Position numbers and translations under genes: made by a program. A stretch of 64,000 nucleotides of DNA from Truepera radiovictrix DSM 17093. GTDB taxonomy: Bacteria; Deinococcota; Deinococci; Deinococcales; Trueperaceae. The stretch covers positions 462,001 to 526,000 of the forward strand of contig NC_014221.1 of the NCBI RefSeq assembly GCF_000092425.1. Reading direction: 5' to 3'. Shown here piece after piece: positions 6,684 through 16,052 of the stretch (positions are counted from its first letter, which is position 1; the number at the start of each line of letters is the position of its first letter). The notes under the pieces were generated by a model that was not told the DNA's origin, did not search any database, and saw only the letters and a program-made list of their open reading frames with translations.

Positions 6684-6992
6684 CTACCCCTTTCGTAACC
6701 GCTTGCTCGCCACTCGGTACACGTCGCGCTTATCGCCTTCCTTACGAATGCCGATGACGACCACCGTCACCACGCCCTCGAGCATCCCGACTTGGTAGAC
6801 GATCCGGTAGCGCTGCCCCGCGGCCCGGACGCTCCGGTAGTCTCTGAGATCGTCAGCGAGCGCCTTACCGCGTTTGTCCGGGTCGGTCGTCAGTTCGTCG
6901 ATCTTGCGTTCTATCGCCTCATAGGTGCGGGTGTCGCTGATACCGTCCAGGTCGGCTTGCGCGTCGGCTGTGAGGATGATGCTGAAGCGCAC
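6684..6992 (-). CDS. RelE/ParE-family toxin
   Basis: 102 residues with the compact RelE/ParE fold: start RFSIILTADAQADLDGISD, central RKIDELTTDPDKRGKAL, then RSVRAAGQRYRIVYQV and the C-terminal VVVIGIRKEGDKRDVY. In RelE-type toxins this family cleaves mRNA on the ribosome; ParE relatives poison gyrase, and I cannot separate the two. It starts at GTG 6992 immediately after the stop of the upstream antitoxin gene, so the pair is translated together. Some residues between the toxin and its antitoxin are lysine- and arginine-rich at the C-terminus, as expected for an RNA-binding toxin. Confidence 0.85.
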   Translation of the reverse strand: MRFSIILTADAQADLDGISDTRTYEAIERKIDELTTDPDKRGKALADDLRDYRSVRAAGQRYRIVYQVGMLEGVVTVVVIGIRKEGDKRDVYRVASKRLRKG

Positions 6993-7346
6993 CTAGAGCC
7001 CACGCTTTGCACGCTGCTCTGCTTTGACTTGCTCCCAGGGGATGAGTTTCACCTCGCCGCGCTCGAAGCGCCCTATGCGCTCCCGGAGGTCATCGGGTAC
7101 GCCGTCCGAAAACTCGTGCTCTTCCACCTCGCGCTCTAAGACATCGGTGACATTCACGCGCTGCCCGGTGAGCTTGTCGAGGGTATCGAGCACCGTTTGC
7201 AAGGTGTCTAAGCTCACGCGCTGCGCTTCGCCTCGAGCCAGCGGATAGATCGTGTTCACGCTGAGCCCCGACGCTTTAGCGAGTTGGTAGGCGGTTAGGC
7301 CATGCCGGTTTAGGTATTCCTTCAACGTCCATCTCATAGCACACAT
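6993..7346 (-). CDS. XRE-type antitoxin of the RelE/ParE pair
   Basis: 117 residues. The N-terminal helix-turn-helix is LTAYQLAKASGLSVNTIYPL (about residues 17-36), of the Cro/C1 type, followed by an acidic C-terminal part (DVLEREVEEHEFSDGVPDD) likely to bind the toxin. It begins at ATG 7346, or ATG 7337 in frame. It directly precedes the toxin. An inverted repeat upstream (7349-7395) is a plausible autoregulatory operator, since such antitoxins normally repress their own promoter. Confidence 0.8.
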   Translation of the reverse strand: MCAMRWTLKEYLNRHGLTAYQLAKASGLSVNTIYPLARGEAQRVSLDTLQTVLDTLDKLTGQRVNVTDVLEREVEEHEFSDGVPDDLRERIGRFERGEVKLIPWEQVKAEQRAKRGL

Positions 7347-8680: not shown

Positions 8681-8704
8681 AGCCTTGAAAGGCTTCGGCC
8701 ACGC

Positions 8705-9348
8705 GTTTCAATCCCCTGACGGGGCAGACCCTTTTGCAACACATTCTCATGCCCCGTGTCTCTAACGCCCAGTTGAAGGGTTTCAATCCCCTGACGGGGC
8801 AGACCCTTTTGCAACCCCACCGCCTCCGCGCCCGTGGGGAGGTCACGCTCACCTGGTTTCAATCCCCTGACGGGGCAGACCCTTTTGCAACCGAGATATC
8901 AACGACCATCGTGCTCATCAGTTGCCTCCTGGTTTCAATCCCCTGACGGGGCAGACCCTTTTGCAACTGGCTCTGGCTCTGGCTGCGCAGCAACCGCGAC
9001 GCGACCAGCGGTTTCAATCCCCTGACGGGGCAGACCCTTTTGCAACCATGCGAAAAATCGTCCCCGGGGCCCTGGTCCGCCTCAAGTTTCAATCCCCTGA
9101 CGGGGCAGACCCTTTTGCAACAATTAAAGCGCTGGTGGACCGAGCAATTAATAAATTGTTTCAATCCCCTGACGGGGCAGACCCTTTTGCAACAAGACCC
9201 TGGTCGAGAACCCCCACCGTATCCTCCGCTACCACCGGTTTCAATCCCCTGACGGGGCAGACCCTTTTGCAACTCCGGTTTGCCGTCGGGCGTCTCGGGG
9301 GGCTGGGCGTTGGTTTCAATCCCCTGACGGGGCAGACCCTTTTGCAAC
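8705..9348 (-). CRISPR. CRISPR array 1: nine 36-bp repeats, eight spacers
   Basis: Repeats start at 8705, 8780, 8856, 8932, 9011, 9086, 9158, 9238 and 9313, all identical. On the plus strand each begins GTTTCAATCCCCTGACGGGG and ends CAGACCCTTTTGCAAC. Spacers are 39, 40, 40, 43, 39, 36, 44 and 39 bases. The complement ends in ATTGAAAC, the usual 5' handle of type III and some type I crRNAs, and contains a short CCCC/GGGG hairpin for Cas6. The leader is therefore at the high-coordinate side, next to cas2. Spacer targets are unknown; I see no spacer matching elsewhere in the window. Confidence 0.99.
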
Positions 9349-9535
9349 TCTACCCTTTGGGAGAGCTGTCTTACAAGGGGTTTTTGAGGGGTCATTTGAC
9401 ACCCCCCCAAGTTATCCACAGCTTGGCCTGTGGATAACCCCAAAAGGACGAGGCGCGGGCTGTGGACAACCGCTAAAGACGACTGACAAACGCTGAAACG
9501 TTCTCGGCTAGCGTGGGTTGTCAAGGTGCGCGCCC
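9349..9535 (-). promoter_or_regulatory. Leader of CRISPR array 1 with three DnaA-box-like sites
   Basis: This sequence is nearly identical to the flank of array 2 (15080-15262), so it is the leader. It holds TTATCCACA (9412-9420) and its complement TGTGGATAA (9429-9437) in an 11-bp palindrome (GTTATCCACAG / CTGTGGATAAC, 6-base centre), and a third site TGTGGACAA (9461-9469). TTGACA on the minus strand (9525-9520) is a possible -35 element with no clear -10. TCTACCCT directly abuts the first repeat in both leaders. New spacers should be added at this end. Confidence 0.85.
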
Positions 9536-9666: not shown

Positions 9667-9936
9667 CTAGAACATAAATAGGCGCGCGTCTTCGGTTGGC
9701 GATCCTGACCCCAACACCTCTACGGGAGAACCGACGGGGTAGATGCGCACGCTGTCCTCGCGTTCGTTGAGGCGCGCCTCGAGCTTTTGGCGCAGCTCCC
9801 GCAGCTCGCGCGGCTCGAGCCAGCACTCGAAAACCGAATACTGCACCCGTTCGCCGAAGCTTTTAAGCACGTTGGCGAGCTTGACGCGCCGGTTGTCGTT
9901 GGGGATGTCGTACGAGACGGTGTAGAGTCCGGCCAT
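9667..9936 (-). CDS. cas2: CRISPR adaptation protein Cas2
   Basis: 89 residues. Ferredoxin-like fold with the conserved Asp10 at the end of the first strand (LYTVSYDIPNDNRR), then FGERVQYSVFECWLEP and VRIYPV. Cas2 dimers bridge two Cas1 dimers in the spacer-integration complex. It starts 20 bases after the cas1 stop with AAAGGAG upstream, so it is the last gene of the operon. Its 3' end faces the array 1 leader, the usual position for an adaptation module. Confidence 0.97.
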   Translation of the reverse strand: MAGLYTVSYDIPNDNRRVKLANVLKSFGERVQYSVFECWLEPRELRELRQKLEARLNEREDSVRIYPVGSPVEVLGSGSPTEDARLFMF

Positions 9937-9956: not shown

Positions 9957-10949
9957 TTAGGTAGGGCGAGCGCTCAGGTAGAAGGGGCTGTAGGGACGGC
10001 GACCCTCGAGCGCGGCGGCGAGGCGCCGCGCTTGCCGCTCAATCAGCGTTCGGTAGGGGCACGCGCCCCCCTCCGGAGGCTTGGCCTCCGCGTCAAGTCG
10101 GGCCTCTAGAAGGGGCACCAAGACCTTGCGACCGGCGTCGCTCAGATAGATGCCGCCCGCCTCGTCCCGAAAGTGCTGCGTGGGGTGAAGGGCGCCGCTC
10201 AAAAAGGCGCGAAACACCGTGAGGTCGACGACGGGCACCCGAAACTCCTCCATGAGGTCGAGGCTCATCGCGGGGTTGCGGCGGCTCTCGGCGTGGAGCA
10301 GCCCCACCTCGGGGTGCAGCCCCGCCGAGAGCGTCGCGAGCTGCACCTGGGCGAGCAGGAGGGCGTAGCCGTACGAGAGGGCGGCGTTGACGGGGTCGCG
10401 CGGTGGGCGGCGGTTGCGCCCCGTAAAGCCGTAGGCCGCGAGCGGCCGTTGGAGCGCGGCGTAGTAGAGGCGCGCGCAGAGCCCCTCAAAGCCGCGCAGC
10501 CGCTCGAGCTCCGTGCAGGCGGCTACTTTGCCGCCGAGCGCGTGCAGCTGCGCCGCCGCCGCGGCAAGTTCGGGGCGCGTGCGCCGAAAGGCGGTGAGGA
10601 CGGCGAGCGACGAACGCAGCTTGGCGAGGACGAAAAGCTGCGCGATCCCAGCCCCTACGGCCGAGGTCGCGGCGGCGAACTGGGCGCGCAGCCGCGCGGG
10701 GGGCGCGAGCGCGCACGAGCTGGCGACGCCGTGGAGCGCCCCTTTGAGCGAGACGTAGAGCACCGGCACCCCGTTACCCAGAAAAAACTGCAGCGCAGGG
10801 GTCGTGAGCCGCACGTTGCCGTGCAGCGCGACCTGCCGCACCTTGCGTGCAGGCACCTCCCCGAGGGCGTGGCCGTCGAGCTCAACGCAGATGCGCCCCG
10901 CCCTTAGGCGCGCGGTCGCACCCTGCTCGAGGAGGTGGAGCACGGCCAT
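9957..10949 (-). CDS. cas1: CRISPR integrase Cas1
   Basis: 330 residues. Cas1 inserts new spacers at the leader-proximal repeat. The N-terminal beta domain covers about residues 1-80. The helical catalytic domain shows the metal-binding residues Glu155 (RGFEGLCAR), His219 (GLLHAES) and the acidic cluster in SLDLMEEFR (about residues 229-236). The motif PVVDLTVFRAFLSGAL is also typical. ATG 10949 lies five bases after the stop of the upstream CARF gene. Length is normal for the family. Confidence 0.97.
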   Translation of the reverse strand: MAVLHLLEQGATARLRAGRICVELDGHALGEVPARKVRQVALHGNVRLTTPALQFFLGNGVPVLYVSLKGALHGVASSCALAPPARLRAQFAAATSAVGAGIAQLFVLAKLRSSLAVLTAFRRTRPELAAAAAQLHALGGKVAACTELERLRGFEGLCARLYYAALQRPLAAYGFTGRNRRPPRDPVNAALSYGYALLLAQVQLATLSAGLHPEVGLLHAESRRNPAMSLDLMEEFRVPVVDLTVFRAFLSGALHPTQHFRDEAGGIYLSDAGRKVLVPLLEARLDAEAKPPEGGACPYRTLIERQARRLAAALEGRRPYSPFYLSARPT

Positions 10950-10953
10950 AGCC

Positions 10954-12417
10954 TTAAGGCAGCGGCACCGCTGACGCGGGGCACCTTTCGCTGCGGCCCT
11001 CTAGCTGCAAGAGCGCTTCGTGTAGGGGTGAGAGAAGGCTGGCGAGCTTGCGGTACGCTTTTTCGGAGATCGGTTTGTACCCGTGAATCCACAGCGACTG
11101 GTTGCGCAGCTCAGCGAGGCCCATGAGGTCGTTTTGGCGGTGAACGAGCGCCTTGACGAGGGGATCTTCAAGCGCGCCGAGGAGCAGATAACTCTCGAAC
11201 AGGGGGACGGGCTGTCCCTGTGGGGGGAGGGGGCGGGGTGAAGCCGCTTGTTTTTTGGACGCTACCTTCTGCCAGGCCGCGGTGTAGGCGTCTTGAAGGA
11301 CGTCTTGGGGTACGGGGAGCGCGGGATAGTTCGCGGCGAGGCTGTCGAAGCGGTAGGTGGCAAGCCGGTGTTGAGAGGTCACTTCTAGGCTCCGGTAGCA
11401 GAGAAGTCCGGCAGCGGTAAAGTTGCCAGCCTCGGCGAAACGGCTTTGCATCAGCTCGAGGCTAGCGAGAAGCCACAACACGAGCGCCGCGTCCGAGAGG
11501 GTGGCGACGCGCTTCGCCGGGTCATCGTAAGCGTCTACCAGCTTCGTAAGTAACAGCACCCCGTCGTGCTGCTGCTTTAGGACTGGTAGCTGCTCGCGCA
11601 GGGGGTGGGTTTGAAAGCCGGGTTTGTCGAGCTCGGAAAAAAGCCCCTCGAAGGCGTGAGCTGCACTCTCAAAGCGGTTGCTGAGCCAGGCGGCGTACGC
11701 TTCTGACAGTTTGGCGTAGGGTGAAAACCGCCTCACGTCCCCCGTACGGTCGGCGATACGTATAAACTCCCGCGCCGCTAACGTGTATTCCTGTGCGTTG
11801 TAGAGGGCCTTGGCCGTCTGATACTCGAGGTCGCCAAAAGCGCCCAGGGGGTCGTTAATCTGAATCAGCGCTTCGCTACCCGCACGCGGTCGGCGCGCAG
11901 CGGGATCAAACTCACCGTTGACGTAAAAAACGCGGAGCTTGTAGCCAAAGGTCATCGCAGAGAAGGCGGCCGCTCCCAGTCCCGTCACCATCGGCTTGGT
12001 ACCGCTTGTAATGTCGACGGCGATGTCCGCGTGAGGGTACCGTTGCAAGACGTCCTGAAACCTTTGATATATGGTCGTGGGGTCGTCTTTGCTGACGTTG
12101 TACGCCCAAACGCGTTTGCCGAGTTCCGCCTCAACCCGGTCGAGATACTTTTCCGACTCGTCGGTGTAAAAGATGTAGATCTGCTCGCTCCGTAAGGCTG
12201 TGGCGGCGAGGATAAGGGCTTCGGGGCTGGTGCCTAGCGTGTGGAGGGAGAGGTTGCACCTTGGCCCGTGGTCTTGCGCGCGCCAGCGCAGCAGCAGGGA
12301 GGGCCACACGTGCTGGTCGTAAAAGTCGTTGGCTGCTTCGAGTCCTTGGGAAGCGTGCATCTCCTTGAACTGCTGCCACAAGTCGTTTAGTTCTACCGGC
12401 TCTACCACCTCGGCCAC
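10954..12417 (-). CDS. CARF-HEPN ribonuclease, Cas02710 (Csm6/Csx1-like) type, copy A
   Basis: 487 residues. The CARF domain shows the nucleotide-binding loops LHTLGTSPEALIL (about 59-70) and DITSGTKPMVTGLG (135-148), the TIGR02710 signature. The middle is helical. The C-terminal HEPN domain has the RNase motif RNQSLWIH (Arg438, His445; R-x6-H). Such proteins are activated by cyclic oligoadenylate made by Cas10 in type III CRISPR and cleave RNA. The start GTG 12417 overlaps the next CARF gene by 16 bases. About 50 residues precede the CARF strand, longer than usual. No Cas10 is in the window, so the signal must come from elsewhere. Confidence 0.88.
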   Translation of the reverse strand: MAEVVEPVELNDLWQQFKEMHASQGLEAANDFYDQHVWPSLLLRWRAQDHGPRCNLSLHTLGTSPEALILAATALRSEQIYIFYTDESEKYLDRVEAELGKRVWAYNVSKDDPTTIYQRFQDVLQRYPHADIAVDITSGTKPMVTGLGAAAFSAMTFGYKLRVFYVNGEFDPAARRPRAGSEALIQINDPLGAFGDLEYQTAKALYNAQEYTLAAREFIRIADRTGDVRRFSPYAKLSEAYAAWLSNRFESAAHAFEGLFSELDKPGFQTHPLREQLPVLKQQHDGVLLLTKLVDAYDDPAKRVATLSDAALVLWLLASLELMQSRFAEAGNFTAAGLLCYRSLEVTSQHRLATYRFDSLAANYPALPVPQDVLQDAYTAAWQKVASKKQAASPRPLPPQGQPVPLFESYLLLGALEDPLVKALVHRQNDLMGLAELRNQSLWIHGYKPISEKAYRKLASLLSPLHEALLQLEGRSERCPASAVPLP

Positions 12418-13607
12418 CCTTCCGCCGCGCGCAACCCCTGCGCCTCGAGGTAGGCGCGCAGCGCCTCGTAGTCGCCCGCGCCGACCGAACGCAAACCGTG
12501 TGCCAAGACGCTCTCGTGCCGCCGCGCCAGGAGCGGTTTGAGCTGCTTCGGGTAGTCGTCCCGCAGCCGCTGCGCGAGCGTGCCGTTTTTGCCGAAAAAG
12601 AGGTCGATGTCAGAGGCGAGGTCGAGCGTCTCTTTAAGCCCCAACAGGGTACCCGCGCGGCGCTTTAACTCCGGCGACAGCTCGGGCCACGTCGCGGCAA
12701 CTTTGAGGTGAAATCCGTAGCGCTCGGCGATGTCGACCTCGGCGGCGAGCTCGACGCCGCGGTAGAGCCGCGCGAGGGCGTCGTCAAAGCGACCGGCAAA
12801 GGCGCGCCGCTCGGCGTTGGCGAGCAGGTCGCCGAGGAGCGCGCGCGTCGGGCGCTGGCGCTGCGTCAGCGCTTGGAGCTCCCCTTGGCGGGCGAAGAGC
12901 GCCCCCAAGACCCGCACCTTGGCGCCGTGCCGCCACGCTTCGGCGATGCTTAGGGCGGGCTCGAGGTGCGTTTGCAAAAGCCCCAACGCCTCGTCGTGGT
13001 GAAAGCTGTCCCAGGCGTTGAGCCCCGCGCACACCCCGCTGAGGTGGCGAAAAAAGCGCGCGTTGGAGGCCGACAGGGGCTGCGCGCAGATCAGCGCGAC
13101 GATGCTCTGCGCCTCGCGAAAGCGCCAGCCGTTCCAGGCGCGGGTAAACGCCTCCCACTCGCGCACGAAAAAGCGCGCCGTGGGGTCTTCGAGCAGCCGC
13201 AAGCGCTCGCTACCGCTCTGCACGCGCCCATAAGCGTCGCGGGCGCTCCCCCCCACATACGAAAACGTCACCCCCTGCCCCGTGAGGGCGAGCGCCAGCC
13301 CCGCAACCATCGGCTTGGTACCCCCCGTGAGATCGGCGGTAATAGCCCGCGCCTCCCACTCGAGCGCCTTGGCAAGCGCCCGCTGCGCCGCTTCGTAGGC
13401 CTCGCTCAAGCTCTCGGCATCATCGAGCAAAATGGTGTAGACCTCGAGCCCTAACGCCTCTTTGACCTGGGCCGCTACCTGCTGCGTCTCCTGGCTGGCG
13501 ATAAACACGGCCCGTTCCGGAGCGTGCTCGAGGGCCGCTGTCACGATGGGCTCAGGCGTTGCGCCCACCGTCGCAATCAGCACCTGCGCGACCCCACTTG
13601 CTGGCAT
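12402..13607 (-). CDS. CARF-HEPN ribonuclease, Cas02710 type, copy B
   Basis: 401 residues from ATG 13607 (an in-frame start at 13622 adds five). The CARF domain starts at once, VLIATVGATPEPIV (about 9-22), with the second loop DLTGGTKPMVAGLAL (92-106). The C-terminal HEPN motif is RHESVLAHG (Arg363, His370). It differs strongly from copy A in sequence and length, so this is not a recent duplication. Overlapping reading frames imply coupled, roughly equal synthesis of A and B. It is the first clear gene of the cas1-cas2 operon. Confidence 0.88.
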   Translation of the reverse strand: MPASGVAQVLIATVGATPEPIVTAALEHAPERAVFIASQETQQVAAQVKEALGLEVYTILLDDAESLSEAYEAAQRALAKALEWEARAITADLTGGTKPMVAGLALALTGQGVTFSYVGGSARDAYGRVQSGSERLRLLEDPTARFFVREWEAFTRAWNGWRFREAQSIVALICAQPLSASNARFFRHLSGVCAGLNAWDSFHHDEALGLLQTHLEPALSIAEAWRHGAKVRVLGALFARQGELQALTQRQRPTRALLGDLLANAERRAFAGRFDDALARLYRGVELAAEVDIAERYGFHLKVAATWPELSPELKRRAGTLLGLKETLDLASDIDLFFGKNGTLAQRLRDDYPKQLKPLLARRHESVLAHGLRSVGAGDYEALRAYLEAQGLRAAEGWPRW

Positions 13608-13649
13608 AAGGTACCCTAACACGCCCAGGCCGCTACCGACCCCAAGGTG

Positions 13650-14284: not shown

Positions 14285-15079
14285 GTTTCAATCCCCTGAC
14301 GGGGCAGACCCTTTTGCAACGAGAATTTTTGTTTAGAATAGGGAAAAATTTCCTATTGTTTCAATCCCCTGACGGGGCAGACCCTTTTGCAACCGGAGAG
14401 CGTCTACGCCCTTCTGCACTCCTGGTCAGACGTTTCAATCCCCTGACGGGGCAGACCCTTTTGCAACACAACGAGCGTCCGGAGCCCCTCGGAAGCAGCG
14501 TAAATGGGTTTCAATCCCCTAACGGGGCAGACCCTTTTGCAACCAAGAGGCCATTCGAGTGGATAACCACCCTGGCCTCCGGCAAGTTTCAATCCCCTGA
14601 CGGGGCAGACCCTTTTGCAACTGGTGACTATTGACCGCCACGCCATGCGGGTGTGGCTGTTTCAATCCCCTGACGGGGCAGACCCTTTTGCAACCCAGCT
14701 TGAAGACCGTCCGCCCCGCCGCCCTGCCCAAACGGGTCAAGTTTCAATCCCCTGACGGGGCAGACCCTTTTGCAACAACAGACTACGTGCCGGTGGGGGT
14801 CGGGGACCTCATTCGGTTTCAATCCCCTGACGGGGCAGACCCTTTTGCAACTCAGGTTCATTAGGGTTGACCAGAATCAGGAATAGCGTTCAGAAGTTTC
14901 AATCCCCTGACGGGGCAGACCCTTTTGCAACAGGCCCCCGTACTGCGCCGCCATCCCCGCGCGGAAGGGTTTCAATCCCCTGACGGGGCAGACCCTTTTG
15001 CAACTGAGATTTACAAACTTAAACATGATGTCCCTTTCTGCCCGTTTCAATCCCCTGACGGGGCAGACCCTTTTGCAAC
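14285..15079 (-). CRISPR. CRISPR array 2: eleven 36-bp repeats, ten spacers
   Basis: Same repeat as array 1, starting at 14285, 14358, 14432, 14508, 14586, 14659, 14741, 14816, 14896, 14969 and 15044. All are identical except the fourth, where CCCCTGACGGGG reads CCCCTAACGGGG (change at 14521). Spacers are 37, 38, 40, 42, 37, 46, 39, 44, 37 and 39 bases. The first spacer is strikingly AT-rich for this genome. Orientation is as in array 1, with the leader at 15080. The shared repeat and leader mean both arrays can use the same Cas1-Cas2 and Cas6. Confidence 0.99.
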
Positions 15080-15262
15080 TCTACCCTCTGAGAGGGCCGT
15101 CTGGCAAGGGGTTTTTGAGGGGTCATTTGACACCCCCCAAGTTATCCACAGCTTGGCCTGTGGATAACCCCAAAAGGACGAGGCGCGGGCTGTGGATAAC
15201 CGCTAAAGATGACTGACAAACGCTGAAACGTTCTTGGCTAACGCGGGTTGTCAAGGTGCGCG
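15080..15262 (-). promoter_or_regulatory. Leader of CRISPR array 2 with three perfect DnaA-box-like sites
   Basis: Nearly identical to the array 1 leader over about 180 bases. It contains TTATCCACA at 15142-15150 and TGTGGATAA at 15159-15167 as a palindrome, and a third TGTGGATAA at 15191-15199. Here all three match the DnaA box consensus exactly, whereas the third site in leader 1 has one change. TTGACA on the minus strand is retained (15252-15247). Confidence 0.85.
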
Positions 15263-15308: not shown

Positions 15309-16052
15309 TTATGCACCTGGGGTGGGGCGGTACGGGCGCACCTGGCCGAAGCCGAGGGTGGTCTTGGCGCCGACGCCGCTATAGAAGGCGAAGCGGCCGA
15401 GGATGGCGAGCCAGTGGGCCTCGTCGGCGCTGGCGCCGCGGAGGTGAAAGGTGACGCGGCCGAGAAAGCCGGTAAAGGGGTCGTGGGCGTAGACGGTGCG
15501 GCTGCGCAGTTCAAAAAAGCGGGGCACGCACCCCTCGGTCAGGCGTGAGGCGACCTCGGAGGGGACCGCTAGGGGGGCGTAGAGGTTCCAGCGCTCGATC
15601 AGCGACCCGAGCACGAGGCGGGGTTCGGGGAGCGGGTAGTTGGCGCCGTGGCGACGAAAGACCGTGGGGGTGGCGAAGTGCAGCGACAAGTCGGCGTCCC
15701 CGGGCGTTTGAAAGAGGCGGGGGTAGGTGGTCGCTCCGGCCCAAGGGTGGCCCTCTTGGAGCACGTCGGTGACGGTGTAGGTGCGGTCGCCGAGACTCAG
15801 GGGGCGCCGCGGGAGGTCGTGGAGGGCGGGGGCGAGCGCGGTGTAGAGGGGTTCGCTCAAAAACGTCAGGCGGATAAAGGGCGGGTGGTCCTTTGCCGCA
15901 CCCCCTACGGAGACGGTAAAGGGTTTGAGGTCTTGGCGGTCGTGGAGTTCGGGCGCGTGCTCCTTGAGAAGGGCGTAGAGGGCGCCGCGGACGTGGACGG
16001 CTTCGGGTTTTTGGGCGCCGGTGAGCGGGAGAACGAGGGCGACGAGGGACAT
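15309..16052 (-). CDS. cas6: CRISPR repeat endoribonuclease Cas6
   Basis: 247 residues. Cas6 cuts the pre-crRNA within each repeat, leaving the 8-base handle. The tandem RRM-like arrangement is visible: N-terminal VALVLPLTG with YALLKEHAPELHD, middle LTFLSEPLY, and the C-terminal glycine-rich loop FAFYSGVGAKTTLGFGQVR typical of the family. It lies 230 bases upstream of array 2 and 22 bases after the DOMON gene, apart from the other cas genes and apparently at the end of a housekeeping transcript. Confidence 0.93.
   Translation of the reverse strand: MSLVALVLPLTGAQKPEAVHVRGALYALLKEHAPELHDRQDLKPFTVSVGGAAKDHPPFIRLTFLSEPLYTALAPALHDLPRRPLSLGDRTYTVTDVLQEGHPWAGATTYPRLFQTPGDADLSLHFATPTVFRRHGANYPLPEPRLVLGSLIERWNLYAPLAVPSEVASRLTEGCVPRFFELRSRTVYAHDPFTGFLGRVTFHLRGASADEAHWLAILGRFAFYSGVGAKTTLGFGQVRPYRPTPGA

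Follow-up and report, generated by a model that had tools for sequence, protein, structure and literature searches.

Facing pairs of predicted DnaA boxes form a conserved element of CRISPR leaders in Truepera and other Deinococcota

Why would a CRISPR leader be built around what look like binding sites for the replication initiator DnaA? The question is raised by the window analysed here, a 64,000-nucleotide stretch of the Truepera radiovictrix DSM 17093 genome, in which the leader of one array carries GTTATCCACAG-CTTGGC-CTGTGGATAAC at 9411-9438, an 11-bp perfect inverted repeat around a 6-base centre, just as a first-pass annotation of this DNA had described it. The same annotation placed a third site at 9461, and a site is indeed present there, albeit as the one-mismatch form TTGTCCACA and not as a perfect box. 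The array locus is laid out as follows, with DnaA boxes named by their match to the consensus.

8704 to 9348, minus strand: CRISPR array 1, nine repeats GTTGCAAAAGGGTCTGCCCCGTCAGGGGATTGAAAC
9349 to 9535, minus strand: leader of array 1, flanked by cas2 on one side and by the array on its left
9411 to 9421, no strand assigned: array-proximal extended DnaA box, GTTATCCACAG on the plus strand and reading CTGTGGATAAC toward the array; 9-mer at 9412-9420
9422 to 9427: centre between the leader 1 boxes, CTTGGC
9428 to 9438, no strand assigned: distal extended DnaA box, facing the proximal one, CTGTGGATAAC on the plus strand; 9-mer at 9429-9437
9461 to 9469, minus strand: third box of leader 1, TTGTCCACA, one mismatch from the DnaA consensus, 32 bp from the distal box
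9667 to 9936, minus strand: cas2 (TIGR01573, above cut-off)
9957 to 10949, minus strand: cas1 (TIGR00287, above cut-off)
10954 to 13622, minus strand: two CARF-domain proteins (10954-12417 and 12402-13622; TIGR02710, above cut-off)
14285 to 15079, minus strand: CRISPR array 2, eleven repeats of the same sequence as in array 1, one with a single substitution
15078 to 15107, minus strand: candidate promoter TTGCCA-18-TAGAGT, abutting the first repeat of array 2; weak, a consensus match only
15080 to 15262, minus strand: leader of array 2
15142 to 15150, plus strand: proximal DnaA box of leader 2, TTATCCACA
15159 to 15167, minus strand: distal DnaA box of leader 2, TTATCCACA
15191 to 15199, minus strand: third DnaA box of leader 2, TTATCCACA
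15309 to 16052, minus strand: cas6 (TIGR01877, above cut-off)

Both leaders sit directly upstream of a first repeat and are common to arrays with the same repeat, as CRISPR leaders are; leaders 1 and 2 share 96% identity over 9403-9532, and the conserved Truepera leader in full spans about 200 bp, read on the minus strand. At the level of the whole genome, the presence of RAMP genes points to a type III system. Elsewhere in the window, at 6684-7346, lie a RelE/StbE-like gene and an adjoining HipB-like antitoxin gene, both weak matches below curated cut-offs.

To place the leader boxes in their genomic context, we evaluated the distribution of the consensus, which revealed six copies of TTATCCACA in the window against 0.09 expected from shuffles, and 41 in the genome (a single contig of 3,260,398 bp) against 3 for the pattern read backwards. 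Nine of these 41 belong to oriC (dnaA-dnaN), 14 to five CRISPR leaders, eight to two other clusters, and ten are single. The genome holds five arrays of one repeat type, and the pair is present in 5/5 of their leaders, the third box being a perfect TTATCCACA in the four leaders other than leader 1. Scattering of the palindrome over unrelated loci had been named in the first-pass annotation as an outcome that would refute its reading. A whole-genome search gave no such refutation: the exact facing pair, its 9-mers set 8 bases apart, turned up nowhere but at the five CRISPR leaders.

Two further box clusters were noted. One (G000:C1:31153-31348, L032), between trpF-like and carboxyl transferase genes, has four TTATCCACA sites, two of them facing across a 14-base gap; G027 (L243) also has facing boxes separated by 14 bases, and these lie 1.4 kb away from a group of TTATCCACA sites next to dnaN. 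The second (G000:C1:2850308-2850433, L036), between NifU-like and FabH-like genes, has four TTATCCACA sites in the same direction, and some Meiothermus-like genomes have a three-box cluster elsewhere, amid genes not homologous to the L036 surroundings. Compared between genera, these other DnaA-box clusters do not lie at homologous genes.

Looking beyond Truepera, we recovered homologous leaders with a pattern tying GTGGATAA to the repeat start and with BLAST of a Meiothermus-type leader, which together yielded 47 leaders with a facing pair in six genera of three Deinococcota families (Truepera, one further genus of its family, one genus of family f4 and three Thermaceae genera; named contigs in the set include Truepera sp. 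CROMO_A_191 and Meiothermus sp. KatS3mg071). The gap between the facing 9-mers is 6 or 7 in Thermaceae, 8 in Truepera, 9 in genome G096 and 10 in genome G009, while the end of the proximal box lies 61-66 bp from the first repeat across all 47; the third box, 32 bp further out, is a Truepera addition to the pair. Over the last 60 leader bases, ungapped identity is 72% between Truepera and G009 and 52% between Truepera and G096, falling to 25% between Truepera and Meiothermus and to 18% between Meiothermus and G009 or G096, such that the pair is kept even where the remaining leader can barely be aligned. A CAGGACGG-like block about 30 bp before the first repeat is common to most leaders of all these families.

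Searches in the opposite direction, from pairs to leaders, gave a matching picture. Across 111 genomes, 44 of 48 exact pairs lie at leaders (gaps of 5-12, those of 5-7 being sought in Thermaceae only). In a pattern search that ignored leader sequence, 36 of 38 exact pairs with gaps of 5-11 in 50 Thermaceae-family genomes coincided with leaders found by BLAST, and 8 of 10 with gaps of 8-12 in all 111 genomes of the phylum lie at leaders, the remaining two being an oriC-like box cluster (G001) and a site with no adjoining array (G008). The association follows repeat type as well: the pair accompanies 2/2 arrays of the box-bearing repeat type in G023 and 4/4 in G009, two of the latter with one mismatch, and arrays of other repeat types in G009 and G023 have no pair. 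A scan of genome contigs with the repeat form GTTNCAA...GGATTG, which covers that form only and misses Meiothermus repeats starting GTCGCAA, gave 50 matches with only two arrays, both from Deinococcota. Viral contigs gave six matches, none with a visible array after them, and among plasmids BLAST with the Meiothermus leader matched only Thermus, outside the box region, and BLAST with the Truepera leader matched nothing. Judged by sequence, the boxes are a signature of leaders and not scattered sites.

Which protein might read this signature? Comparison with the origins revealed that the leader arms equal the extended 9-mer oriC boxes of the same genome, flanks included, and that TTGTCCACA and CTATCCACA, two variants seen in leaders, are present in the oriC regions of these genera too. 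This comparison used six origin regions holding boxes, three other fetched stretches being without an origin. Arrangement differs in that exact boxes at oriC point apart whereas those in leaders are turned toward one another; the six box-holding origin regions contained no facing pair within 40 bp. One protein with the DnaA C-terminal domain was found per genome in 7/7 genomes, and a DnaA was also matched by TIGR00362.

A different leader-binding protein could instead recognise a palindrome that resembles a DnaA box by chance, which we consider very improbable. On its side stand the thought that all leaders may be one evolutionary event and our own estimate, near 0.001, of the probability that a 9-mer conserved among about 100 leader positions is a DnaA box by chance; against it, the flanking bases match the oriC boxes as well, and Truepera has an additional, separate copy of the box. 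The DnaA reading has to bear the point that all leaders may share one ancestor, and therefore that the origin of the motif may count as a single event. By every sequence criterion examined, the earlier identification of the sites as DnaA boxes stands, with a 9-mer and flanks like those of the cell's own oriC, a single DnaA gene, conservation across six genera, and no compensatory changes in the arms.

That last observation also bears on the suggestion, likewise made in the first-pass annotation, that the palindrome forms an RNA hairpin. Such a hairpin, with a stem of 11 bp and a loop of 6 bases, would work in the leader transcript, for instance in processing or attenuation. Leader RNA does fold better than shuffles (z -3.35), in a fold that contains the palindrome stem, but a perfect palindrome yields a stem whatever its function. 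Among the arms of the 47 leaders we counted 0 compensatory changes, 15 pair-breaking cells and 5 one-sided changes that keep a pair, with variation mostly at the flanks, where oriC boxes vary too, and the third box kept in Truepera has no pairing partner. Because compensatory changes are absent and pair-breaking ones are not, a protein site fits better than a hairpin, and the RNA alternative is disfavoured to the point of being very unlikely. Within 27 non-redundant Thermaceae leaders, each of the nine distal-box positions is 100% conserved and the proximal box reaches 99%, compared with a mean of 80% over the remaining leader. In that alignment TCTCATAAA and GGGGTATGCT owe part of their conservation to how leaders were parsed; the boxes, though part of the BLAST query that found the leaders, were not used for parsing.

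The leader probably carries a functional element, predicted from sequence, at which DnaA binds the pair, a confidence that belongs to the element itself and not to the choice between its possible effects. We found no paper describing DnaA boxes in a CRISPR leader in a literature search. DnaA-regulated promoters and double boxes of E. coli (nrdA, mioC, purH; PMC11317965) likewise place TTATCCACA-like pairs away from oriC, and for E. coli DnaA a preference is reported for boxes spaced by 2-3 bp, with wider spacing weakening the binding (PMC11317965). The leaders described here differ, a point against the DnaA reading: their boxes face each other across a varying gap of 6-10 bp, and none of the 47 has the E. 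coli-type spacing. In the mechanism that we propose, the cell's single DnaA would bind the pair as two cooperating subunits and bend the leader there, and leader use would presumably change with the level and nucleotide state of DnaA.

What such binding would achieve is a more tentative matter. The likeliest effect, to which we would give a little short of an even chance, is that DnaA controls how the array is transcribed, from a promoter that would lie between the first repeat and the boxes; a promoter scan of leader 1 returned no clear promoter, and array 2 offers the weak candidate listed above. This effect is ranked, less firmly, above an architectural role in Cas1-Cas2 integration. Leaders of E. 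coli type I-E and of type I-F systems are IHF-dependent. Those leaders likewise hold a site for a host DNA-bending protein at a fixed distance from the first repeat, but the leaders described here have the DnaA-box consensus in place of an IHF consensus, which was absent from all 54 leaders searched, and no protein in the genomes searched passed the cut-off for IHF-alpha, the only IHF family included.

The pair could thus be a docking site at which DnaA takes over the role of IHF in E. coli, so that the leader is bent and Cas1-Cas2 can locate the first repeat, perhaps for the most part once replication has started, a possibility we take seriously while thinking it rather doubtful. Consistent with it, IHF/HU-like matches number one per genome with none over the IHF-alpha cut-off, the distance from proximal box to first repeat is nearly fixed while the gap between boxes drifts, and the pair is kept in some single-repeat leaders, which would make little or no crRNA and could accept spacers. 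E. coli Cas1-Cas2 foci depend on DnaA-driven replication, though this was attributed to forks (PMC10359635, PMC13244154). Weighing against it are the Meiothermus-like array G028, which has at least 17 repeats despite a mutated proximal box, and spacer acquisition in Thermus without boxes (PMC7515739).

The Thermus leaders are instructive in their own right, being homologous downstream of the box region and joined to the same kind of repeat, with a conserved TTATWCGSCRTGTGYATATTCC (L188-L196, L200) instead of the pair that sister genera have in that place; the two Thermus origins examined use TTATCCACA. Transcription of the type III arrays of T. thermophilus HB27c is reported, as is spacer acquisition by two of these arrays (PMC7515739), and so the element is not generally required: in Thermus it is dispensable or replaced.

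Less eventful readings, in which the sites serve to titrate DnaA or have been carried along passively as the leader was copied to new places in the genome, draw on the several leader copies per genome and on Truepera arrays that mostly lack neighbouring cas genes. We regard them as unlikely, as the boxes are near-perfectly conserved amid divergence in both their spacing and the remaining leader sequence, and the leaders hold 14 of the 41 genome boxes, fewer than oriC and the other clusters combined.

Where spacers are placed and when an array is read depend on host factors at the leader, and a replication initiator in that position would suggest one way in which bacteria lacking IHF could mark their leaders. 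Our wider proposal, offered tentatively and with limited confidence, is that DnaA may serve IHF-less Deinococcota as a dedicated CRISPR-leader factor that, when bound to the facing pair, would permit spacer integration by Cas1-Cas2, or transcription of the array, in time with the initiation of replication. With a replication initiator at leaders, adaptive immunity and the cell cycle would be coupled through direct contact and, if true, immunisation would be tied to that cycle. For these genera the box pair offers a simple signature for finding leaders, and its strict conservation in leaders of several heat- and radiation-hardy genera suggests that immune memory is connected with the replication cycle in a way not described so far.
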